From Citreicella sp. C3M06 (lineage in GTDB: Bacteria > Pseudomonadota > Alphaproteobacteria > Rhodobacterales > Rhodobacteraceae), in NCBI RefSeq assembly GCF_018860705.1, contig NZ_JAHKQA010000078.1, positions 1-60,887 on the forward strand: DNA of 60,887 nucleotides, read 5' to 3'. The position numbers were made by a program, and so were the translations under genes. The notes under the pieces were generated by a model. It did no database searches. It was not told the origin of the DNA and worked only from the letters and a program-made list of their open reading frames with translations. Positions 57,330 to 60,887 of the stretch are shown piece after piece. How positions within the stretch are numbered: the first letter of the stretch is position 1; every line of letters begins with the position of its first letter.

Positions 57330-60300
57330 TCAGCCGATCTCGGCGAGGCGGGCGAGCGCGTCCTTGAGCTGCGCCTCTTCCTCTTCGCGGGCGCGCAGGT
57401 TCTCCTGCGTTTCCTCGACAACCTCGGGCGGGGCGCTTTGTGCGAACTTGGGGTTCTTGAGCCGCCCGCGCAGCCCGCCCAGTTCCTTGCCAAGCTTGGT
57501 CAGCGCCTTTTCCAGCCGGGCCTTTTCCTCGGCCACGTCGATGATATCGGCCAGCGGCAGACCAAAGGTCGACCCGCCCACCGGAACGCTGATGCAGCCC
57601 TTGGGGAAGGCATCGACCGGGCTGAGGCTTTCCAGCCGCGCCAGTCGCTTGATCAGCGCCTCGTTGCGATCCCATGCGGCCTGCCCGGCGGCGTCCAGAT
57701 CTGTCACCAGCACCGGCACATACAGGCCCACCGGCACATGCATCTGCGCCCGCGCCGAGCGCACGCCGTCGATCAGGGCGATGGCCCATGTCATTTCGGC
57801 GTCGGCATCCGCATCGAGCAGATCGGCGGAGGTGTAGGTCGGCCAGTCGCCATGCACCAGCATCTTGGACCGGGTGCCAAGCGTGGCCCACAGCTCTTCG
57901 GTGATGAAGGGCATGATGGGGTGCAACAGGATCAGGCACTGGTCGATGACCCAGGACATGGTCGCCTGCGTCTCAAGCTTGGCGCTGTCATCCTCGCCCT
58001 GAAGCAGCGGCTTGGAAAATTCCACGTACCAGTCGCAGACCACGCCCCAGACAAAGGCATAAAGCGCCTGCGCCGCGTCGTTGAACCGGTAATCGGCCAG
58101 TGCCGCGTCGACGGCTTCGCGCACCTTGGCGGTTTCGCCAAGGATCCACTTGTTCACGGTGGCCGAGGGCTGCGGCACGCCGCCGCCAAGGCCCACTGCG
58201 CCGTTCATCTCGGCAAAGCGGGCGGCATTCCACAGCTTGGTGCCAAAGTTGCGATAGCCCGCAATGCGCTGCATATCGAGCTTGAGCACACCGCCCAGAG
58301 AGGCCATCGCCGCATTGGTAAAGCGCAGCGCATCGGCACCGTATTCGTCGATGATATCGAGCGGGTCGACCACGTTGCCAAGCGATTTGGACATCTTCTT
58401 GCCCTTGGCGTCACGCACGAGGCCATGCAGGTAGACATCGTGGAACGGGATTTCATCGACCACGGCGAGCTGCATCATCATCATCCGCGCCACCCAGAAG
58501 AACAGGATGTCCTGCCCGGTCACCAGAACGCTGGTGGGGAAGTATTTCTCCAGCTCCGCCGTCTGCTCGGGCCAGCCAAGCGTGCCGATGGGCCAGAGCC
58601 CCGAGCTGAACCATGTATCCAGCACGTCGGGGTCGCGGAAGAACGGGATCGCCTGCGCGCGGCGGCGCTGATCGACGCCGGTGTAATCGGTGCCCTGCGA
58701 GAGCAGATCGGCGAGCATGTCTTCGGCAGCGGCGGCATCTTCGACCAGCAGGAAATCGGCGTCCTCGCCAAAGAAATCGTGCATCTGTGCCAGCGCATCC
58801 GCCTCGCTCGCTGCGCAGAACGAGCGCCATTCGCCGCCCAGACCCGGCGTATGCCAGACCGGAATCTGGTGCCCCCACCACAGCTGGCGGGAAATGCACC
58901 ACGGCTCGATGTTCTCCAGCCAGTGGTAATAGGTCTTTTCGCCGCTTTCCGGCATGATCCGGACCTTGCCGGATTTCACGGCATCCAGCGCCGGGCCAAC
59001 GATCTTGGCGGTGTCGACGAACCACTGGTCGGTCAGCATCGGCTCGATGACCACCTTGGAGCGATCGCCGAAGGGCTGCATGATCAGCTTGGACTCGACC
59101 AGCGGAACCTGTTCGGCCTCGCGGGTCTCGCCGCCTTCTTCCGGGGCCAGCGGCGCCTTGGCGGGCTTGCCCAGACGCGGATCGGTGGCATCGGTCATCA
59201 CCGCCAGATTTTCGGCGGTGATCTCGGCGACCACCGCGGCGCGCGCCTCGGCCCGGTCGAGCCCGCGCAGGTGGTCGGGAACAAGGTTCAGCGCGTCGGC
59301 TTCGGCCTCGCTCAGGGTCAGATCGCCGGCGGCGACCTTCTGCGCGATCTCGGCACATTCGGCATAGGGCTTGCCATCGGCGCGCAGCGCGCCCCGTGTG
59401 TCGAGCAGGCGGTACATCGGGATGCCACCGCGCTTGGCGACCTGATAATCGTTGAAATCATGCGCGCCGGTGATCTTGACCGCGCCCGAGCCAAAGCTGG
59501 GATCGGGGTATTCATCGGTGATGATCGGGATTAGGCGGCGATGCTCTTTCGGCCCCACCGGGATTTCGCACAGCGTGCCGACGATCGCGGCATAGCGCTC
59601 ATCGGACGGATGCACCGCAACCGCACCATCGCCCAGCATGGTTTCGGGGCGGGTGGTGGCGATCGAGATATAATCACGCTCTTCGCGGAAGAGGACGGTG
59701 CCGTCTTCGTCTTTTTCGACGTATTCATAGGTCGCGCCGCCCGCCAGCGGGTATTTGAAATGCCACATGTGGCCGGCAACTTCGATATTCTCGACCTCGA
59801 GATCGGAAATCGCGGTTTCGAAATGCGGGTCCCAGTTCACCAGCCGCTTGCCGCGGTAGATGAGCCCCTTGTTGTACATCTCGACAAAGACCTTGATCAC
59901 CGCGTCGTGGAAATTGCCCTCTTCTCCGGCAGGGGCGCCTGTCGCGCCGCTCATGGTGAAAGCGTTGCGCGACCAGTCGCAGGACGCGCCCAGCCGTTTG
60001 AGCTGGTTGATGATCGTGTCGCCCGATTCCTGTTTCCAGTCCCAGACCTTGGCAAGGAACGCCTCGCGGCCCAGTTCGCGCCGGGACGGTTGATTTTCCT
60101 GCGCCAGCTTGCGCTCGACCACCATCTGCGTGGCGATGCCCGCGTGGTCCTGCCCCGGCTGCCAGAGCGTGTCGAAACCGCGCATCCGGTGCCAGCGGGT
60201 CAGGATATCCTGAAGCGTGTTGTTGAACGCATGCCCCATGTGCAACGAGCCGGTCACGTTTGGTGGCGGGATCATGATGCTGAAGCTCTCGTCGCGCGAC

Positions 60301-60395
60301 GCGTTGGCGCCCGCCTTGAAAGCTCCGGCCTGTTCCCACGCCTCGTAGATCCGCGCCTCGGCGGCGGCTGCATCGAATGTCTTTTCCATCGCCAT
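57330..60395 (-). CDS. valS: valine-tRNA ligase
   Basis: About 1,021 residues. Class I synthetase motifs: HIGH-type [20 protein letters not shown] and KMSKS in [38 protein letters not shown] marks the editing (CP1) domain. It has the C-terminal coiled coil typical of ValRS ([20 protein letters not shown], then [19 protein letters not shown]). The CP1 region carries an insert of about 60 residues compared with E. coli, as in other alphaproteobacteria. The start is MAMEKTF at 60395 or MEKTF at 60389; frames reaching further upstream are not supported. Its leader abuts a small-RNA array. Confidence 0.95.
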
Positions 60396-60535: not shown

Positions 60536-60585
60536 GCAGAAAAGCAAACGGCGGCGCCCAGGGAGGAGGAGAGGACGCCGCCGTT
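60536..60585 (-). terminator. intrinsic terminator closing the CCUCCUCCC RNA array
   Basis: On the minus strand AACGGCGGCG (60585-60576) pairs with CGCCGCCGUU (60556-60547), the loop contains CUCCUCCUCCC, and UUUGCUUUUCU follows (60548-60538). A hairpin plus U-rich tail in this orientation should end transcripts coming from the right before they reach valS. Confidence 0.75.
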
Positions 60586-60887
60586 CTATCGAATACCCCA
60601 GGGAGGAGGAGAGGGGCTTCGAGCACGTTGGGCCGCTGAGGCCCGATGTGGGGTTGCGGCGGTTCCTAGGGAGGAGGAGGGGAACCGCCGCGCTATCGAA
60701 GGCCCCAGGGAGGAGGAGAGGGGGCTCCGAATGCGTTGGGCCGCTGAGGCCCGATGTAGGGTTGCGACGGTTCCTAGGGAGGAGGAGGGGAACCGCCGCG
60801 CTATCGAAGGCCCCAGGGAGGAGGAGAGGGGGCTCCGAATGCGTTGGGCCGCTGAGGCCCGATGTAAGGTTGCGGCGGTTCCTAGGG
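60547..60887 (-). ncRNA. tandem array of CCUCCUCCC (cuckoo/CcsR-type) small RNAs
   Basis: Units of 108 bases repeat to the window edge: agggaggaggag-type cores begin at 60561, 60601, 60669, 60708, 60777, 60816 and (cut off) 60885. On the minus strand each unit gives two stem-loops. One has stem GCGGCGGUUCC/GGAACCGYCGC with loop CCUCCUCCUCCCUA; the other has a GCCCC/GGGGC stem around UCUCCUCCUCCCU. This is the layout of the alphaproteobacterial cuckoo RNAs (CcsR1-4 in Rhodobacter sphaeroides): paired hairpins with anti-Shine-Dalgarno-like loops in tandem copies. Three copies are complete here; the promoter, and any DUF1127 (CcaF1-like) gene usually found with them, would lie beyond the right edge. 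The last copy differs and doubles as terminator. Confidence 0.85.

Follow-up and report, generated by a model that had tools for sequence, protein, structure and literature searches.

The DNA analysed here, called the window, is a stretch of 60,887 nucleotides from Citreicella sp. C3M06 that shares its numbering with contig C51 and ends inside a tandem array of hairpins encoded on the minus strand. Directly upstream of the array lies a DUF1127 gene of 72 aa (C51:61223-61438, minus strand), whose product matched Pfam PF06568 with 45.1 bits (E 8.5e-12) and passed the gathering score of 23.3; the original prediction, made from the window alone, had proposed looking for such a gene to the right of 60,887. 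A divergent gene of putative mrp type, named from reading the sequence, follows at C51:61673-62737 (plus strand). On the other side, the next gene downstream of the array is the putative valS, a 1021-aa frame at 57333-60395 (minus strand) that owes its name to the original prediction; it starts at 60395, some 150 bases beyond the array's final hairpin, and is thus as close as had been stated. The suggestion that this neighbourhood is unusual found no support, as valS was present in 20 and the mrp-type gene in 60 of 81 loci, counting that of the window, within 4 kb on each side. Two further weak DUF1127-like matches were seen in the same genome, at C49:190556-190696 (E 0.03) and C41:114490-114639 (E 0.16).

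At the window end, the minus strand carries three full 108-bp units and one cut arm. Tandem Repeats Finder gave a period of 108 with 3.1 copies and 91% matches, and two adjacent inner copies are 98% identical across 108 bp. From sequence and fold, the last (3'-most) motif hairpin was placed at 60546-60585, with CCUCCUCCC in its loop (60561-60569) and UUUGCUUUU behind it, and its 5' partner in the same unit at 60590-60623 (motif 60601-60609). The second unit from the 3' end consists of a 3' hairpin at 60656-60691 (motif 60669-60677) and a 5' hairpin at 60696-60731 (motif 60708-60716), and the third of the corresponding hairpins at 60764-60799 (motif 60777-60785) and 60804-60839 (motif 60816-60824), while only the 3' arm of the fourth unit's hairpin (60872-60887) is present. 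Folding also placed a linker hairpin, GGGCC-UCAGC-GGCCC, between the units at 60630-60644, 60738-60752 and 60846-60860, all on the minus strand. The window holds six full minus-strand copies of CCTCCTCCC (60561, 60601, 60669, 60708, 60777 and 60816), and the whole array on C51, the window's contig, holds 11, from 60561 to 61193. Past the window, motifs start at 60934, 60973, 61041, 61081, 61144 and 61185, the one at C51:61081-61088 having the shorter core CTCCTCCC and marking a twelfth motif hairpin. The array thus comprises at least 12 motif hairpins, that is, six or more units, with its right edge at about C51:61213. Sequence, repeat finding and folding all confirm the predicted minus-strand tandem array with motif-bearing loops behind valS; the predicted number of at least three units holds for the window, where three are full, but is an undercount because motif copies continue to C51:61193.

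The array is interrupted by an assembly gap of 38 N at C51:60888-60925, one base past the window, which is why the window ends at 60887 and why the fourth unit is cut. Across this gap, like hairpins are 49 and not 108 bases apart, which shows the stated gap length to be wrong, and the array around it is probably mis-sized in the assembly.

Local folding left the core motif unpaired at all eight positions in each of the 11 array hairpins that could be folded, the hairpin beside the N gap being the one that could not. The motifs therefore lie in the loops of paired hairpins, as had been predicted, and not in stems. When the window piece was folded, the mean unpaired probability was 1.00 in five of the six loops and 0.68 in the remaining one, where the truncated arm at the edge of the window competes for the stem. 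The 348-nt minus-strand piece folded with a z of -6.84, and none of 100 shuffles was as good. The original prediction also took the last hairpin for an intrinsic terminator, which its UUUGCUUUU tail makes plausible, but a consensus terminator scan, which permits loops of 3-8 while this loop has about 13, found no terminator. Judging from the sequence, the hairpin at 60546-60585 with its U-rich tail is the probable transcript end.

We compared the locus with its relatives, taking the best 80 of 83 loci by similarity to the DUF1127 protein, which has its closest relatives in Salipiger species, and adding the window's locus to make 81. In 68 of the 81 loci, two or more folded hairpins followed one another in a chain, with runs of 2 to 22 hairpins, whereas on the opposite strand none of the 81 had a folded motif hairpin in the 2.5 kb piece taken downstream. 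Motif copies in these comparison sets were located by the eight-base core CTCCTCCC, so the invariance of the core is by construction; independent of the search are the presence of the core within 1.6 kb downstream of the DUF1127 gene in 72 of the 81 loci, which were chosen by their protein, and the conservation of the ninth motif base, outside the search core, in 395 of 430 copies. The arms flanking the motif formed at least eight pairs at 354 of the 430 copies (82%), against 21% when the 3' arms were taken from another locus, and at three of eight motif copies elsewhere in the loci. Among 17 first units from different loci, 13 of 16 consensus stem pairs showed two-sided changes that keep the pair. 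The array stems covary across genera, which is compensatory change. Of 41 genomes, 25 had a pattern of two neighbouring motifs, and so did all 20 of the window's genus, itself included.

Array length differs between relatives. At the same place, 10, 14 and 8 hairpins (five, seven and four units) occur in three genomes that bear the name Salipiger bermudensis; as the collection contains one genome per species, these may be separate species that share a name. In Primorskyibacter flagellatus, the array has at least 22 motif hairpins with a spacing of about 118 bp, an N gap inside it as well, and neighbouring units that are 93-100% identical. With such numbers, the array is a clear natural case of small-RNA copy-number change. 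When the units of nine Salipiger/Alloyangia arrays were compared with each other and with those of four more arrays, leaving out units that touch an N gap, the nearest match of the first unit was the first unit of another array in nine of nine, and that of the last unit was a last unit elsewhere, again in nine of nine. The 27 inner units found their nearest match in their own array (8), in an inner unit elsewhere (18) or in a first unit (1), this lone case probably being a wrongly cut unit. Inner units with 98-100% identity within an array occurred in the window's genome, Salipiger marinus, one S. bermudensis and Primorskyibacter flagellatus. Since end units match end units while inner units match their own array or other inner units, the end units look fixed and those between them seem to multiply; this supports the predicted expansion of copies for the inner units.

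These comparisons also bear on the idea that the array is a tandem or dispersed DNA repeat with no RNA function. The 98% identity of tandem copies and the assembly gap inside the array are what such a repeat would give, but its stem arms covary across genera, its end units match end units between species and its upstream region is strongly conserved, and we regard this explanation as extremely improbable.

Searches with Rfam models point to a known kind of RNA. The CcsR1 model (RF02791) matched six places in the array with 25-43 bits (best 43.5; E 8.6e-9 to 1.8e-3), and the ar14 model (RF02344) matched five with 35-51 bits (best 50.9; E 8.3e-8 to 2.3e-4). The E-values are significant, but all scores stay below the gathering scores of 65.3 for CcsR1 and 58.8 for ar14, as do those of a solitary hairpin pair on contig C36 of the same genome (49.0 and 55.1 bits, respectively). 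At the gathering score, Rfam returned nothing in the window, the continuation of the array, two solitary pairs or four relatives. An ar14 search of 142 genomes of the class matched seven, the window's own included, none above the cut-off, and an ar15 (RF02345) search found no match in the window's genome, but none anywhere else either, controls included. Together with the DUF1127 gene directly upstream, the CcsR1 and ar14 matches support the original reading of the locus as cuckoo/CcsR. The array is a long example of the known DUF1127-CcsR (CIN1/cuckoo) arrangement and not a new kind; the membership we claim is in the cuckoo/CIN1 kind and not in the curated Rfam CcsR1 family.

Upstream of the DUF1127 gene, the pattern TGC[AG]-N6-GCAT was found within 200 bp in 70 of 72 loci, against a mean of 2.05 and a maximum of 6 in 100 shuffles; these are the loci with at least two motifs, which are related and not independent, and the pattern was devised after viewing the sequences. 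The strict form TGCA-N6-GCAT accounts for 64 of the 72. Of nine loci without the motif, four had the box. In 62 of the 64 loci with both elements, the box stands 22-23 bp before a TTGTG, and a TAT follows 17 bases further in 36. In the window's genome, the putative LysR-type site is a one-base variant, TGCG-N6-GCAT, at C51:61531-61544 (minus strand, found by pattern), with the TTGTG but without the TAT; further upstream there is one weak sigma-70-like site, against 0.2 expected. Across the 81 loci, the region before the DUF1127 gene had no sigma-70 type pattern (shuffled 1.65), one CTTG-N14-18-CTA (shuffled 3.1), two CTTG-N15-18-CCAT (shuffled 0.35) and 40 TTG-N17-20-CTA (shuffled 9.0). The TTG and TAT match RpoHI/RpoHII elements given for another DUF1127 gene (PMC10673084). 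A PhaR-type palindrome, at first considered for the upstream block, was rejected, as several loci including the window's break it yet keep TGCR-N6-GCAT.

In S. meliloti, an LsrB box of the sequence TGCA-N6-GCAT, located at -72 to -60, is reported to activate NfeR1 (PMC10746234). The sequence likeness suggests a promoter box common to NfeR1 of Sinorhizobium and the CcsR loci of Rhodobacteraceae, and by analogy a LysR-type protein would bind it. LsrB is headed as unique to Rhizobiales in one paper (PMC11975290), and the piece read beside trxB of the window's genome had no LysR/LsrB gene. A limited literature search found no report linking CcsR to LysR in Rhodobacter sphaeroides, and we do not claim the box as unreported. 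Such a common box would make the upstream regulator of CcsR directly testable.

Besides the array, the window's genome has two solitary hairpin pairs, at C36:45768-45816 (ar14 55.1 bits) and C90:15583-15631 (ar14 50.5 bits). Several genus relatives had up to at least about six dispersed pairs each among the matches listed. TGCR-N6-GCAT is rare before solitary pairs, with six in the 40 pairs among the matches listed (shuffled mean 1.2, maximum 4), and at least two of the six are in another register. A looser form, ATGC[AG]-N8-A, precedes 40 of 42 (shuffled mean 4.7, maximum 12), and a longer pattern occurs in 29 of 42, there always 23 bp from the TTG; both patterns were composed after reading those sequences and counted among the matches listed. 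Most of these listed solitary pairs have by eye an extra short inverted repeat, ACGACGC-N4-7-GCGTC, between the TTG element and the hairpins, which is perhaps a 5' stem of the RNA.

The solitary pairs are of importance for another explanation, in which the array is mainly a sponge whose open C-rich loops titrate the DUF1127 protein or Hfq or act as ribosome decoys. A sponge would fit the large number of similar loops that a single transcript carries right after a gene from a family of RNA-binding proteins, and CcaF1 of R. sphaeroides is reported to bind RNA and to affect CcsR levels (PMC10253847). However, hairpin pairs also occur singly behind similarly arranged promoters and would be ill suited as sponges, the related NfeR1 silences defined mRNAs and is reported to lose this ability when its three motifs are mutated (PMC10746234), and FlhR mRNA has been reported as a target of CcsR1-4 (PMC8307010). 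We therefore think it improbable that the array is mainly a sponge and favour RNAs that act on mRNAs.

If the loops pair with ribosome-binding sites, their targets should carry the complementary sequence. GGGAGGAGR stands 3-9 bases before the ATG of 30 genes in the genome, and the reversed pattern of none. Pfam assigned 11 of the 30 to solute-binding proteins (seven DctP, two TctC, one Peripla_BP_6 and one Peripla_BP_4), 28 having been scanned and frames of 44 and 5 aa left out, compared with two of 79 genes with an ordinary AAGGAGG site (Fisher p 7.5e-6), of which 77 were scanned and frames of 5 and 13 aa left out. Because the families listed for 48 of the ordinary-site genes were the first 25 of 62, we checked this set with phmmer, run uniformly with the binding proteins identified so far as seeds, and added single Pfam scans. 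In a genus relative, six of the first 30 of 46 loop-complementary genes were binding proteins against none of the first 30 of 126 ordinary-site genes (p 0.012); here 28 of the 30 ordinary-site genes were scanned, the families considered were the first 25 of 38 and of 56, and the two samples come from different parts of the genome. Two 5.4 Mb genomes without detected CcsR had only 7 and 14 loop-complementary sites, but among these 21 genes were two (phmmer) to four (Pfam, first 25 of 31 families) binding proteins, which weakens the link of the target signal to CcsR. Judged by their GGGAGGAG ribosome sites, the solute-binding-protein mRNAs of uptake systems are candidate targets; this prediction agrees with reports on NfeR1 and AbcR, and the counts do not show that it depends on CcsR.

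Taken together, the array is very likely the 3' portion of an mRNA that encodes a CcaF1-like DUF1127 protein and continues into a long tandem series of CcsR/cuckoo small RNAs. The gene order, the tandem hairpin pairs with open CCUCCUCCC loops, the compensatory stems and the conserved upstream LysR-type box are direct observations, while the mechanism in the window's organism is taken over from work on R. sphaeroides and NfeR1. In R. sphaeroides, CcsR is reported to be co-transcribed with the DUF1127 gene, and RNase E and CcaF1 to act in its maturation (PMC10253847, PMC8625941); NfeR1 is reported to silence mRNAs through CCUCCUCCC motifs (PMC10746234). By analogy with these studies in R. sphaeroides and Sinorhizobium, a single stress-responsive promoter, whose likely activator would be a LysR-type protein (LsrB/VtlR-like, or OxyR), would give a joint transcript of the DUF1127 gene and the array, RNase E and the DUF1127 protein would cut it into two-hairpin RNAs, and their C-rich loops would block translation by pairing with G-rich ribosome-binding sites. 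All units would supply much the same regulator, one dose each, so that the number of inner copies would set the output from one promoter.

To the known arrangement, our analysis adds the pattern of fixed ends and a moving core, the conservation of a LysR-type box, and predicted targets for which the control gave a mixed result. A wider proposal, which we put forward tentatively and consider rather doubtful as a whole, is that of a dose-tunable regulator: a redox-linked LysR-type box would unite the DUF1127 array and the dispersed CcsR pairs in one Rhodobacteraceae regulon, reaching across orders via the NfeR1 box, inner units would be gained and lost between fixed ends, and the RNAs would restrain solute uptake by masking ribosome sites on the binding-protein mRNAs of TRAP, tripartite tricarboxylate and ABC systems.

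To our knowledge, NfeR1 of Sinorhizobium meliloti has no DUF1127 gene in front of it. It (ar14, RF02344) shares with the present locus the CCUCCUCCC in loops and has upstream the TGCA-N6-GCAT box, of which the window's genome carries the one-base variant TGCG-N6-GCAT, but it is described as a single RNA with three hairpins (PMC10746234), whereas we found a tandem array with ar14 scores of 35-51 bits against 58.8. AbcR1/AbcR2 (ar15, RF02345) are alike as anti-Shine-Dalgarno RNAs that are reported to be controlled by LsrB/VtlR and tied to nutrient uptake (PMC7486931, PMC10746234). With CcsR1-4/ccaF1 of Rhodobacter sphaeroides (the CIN1 locus, cuckoo, RF02791), the array has in common that tandem two-hairpin units with CCUCCUCCC loops come after a DUF1127 gene of like orientation; it differs from the four RNAs there in having at least 12 motif hairpins and a gap (six or more units), with some inner units near-identical, and its matches to RF02791 reach 25-43 bits against 65.3.
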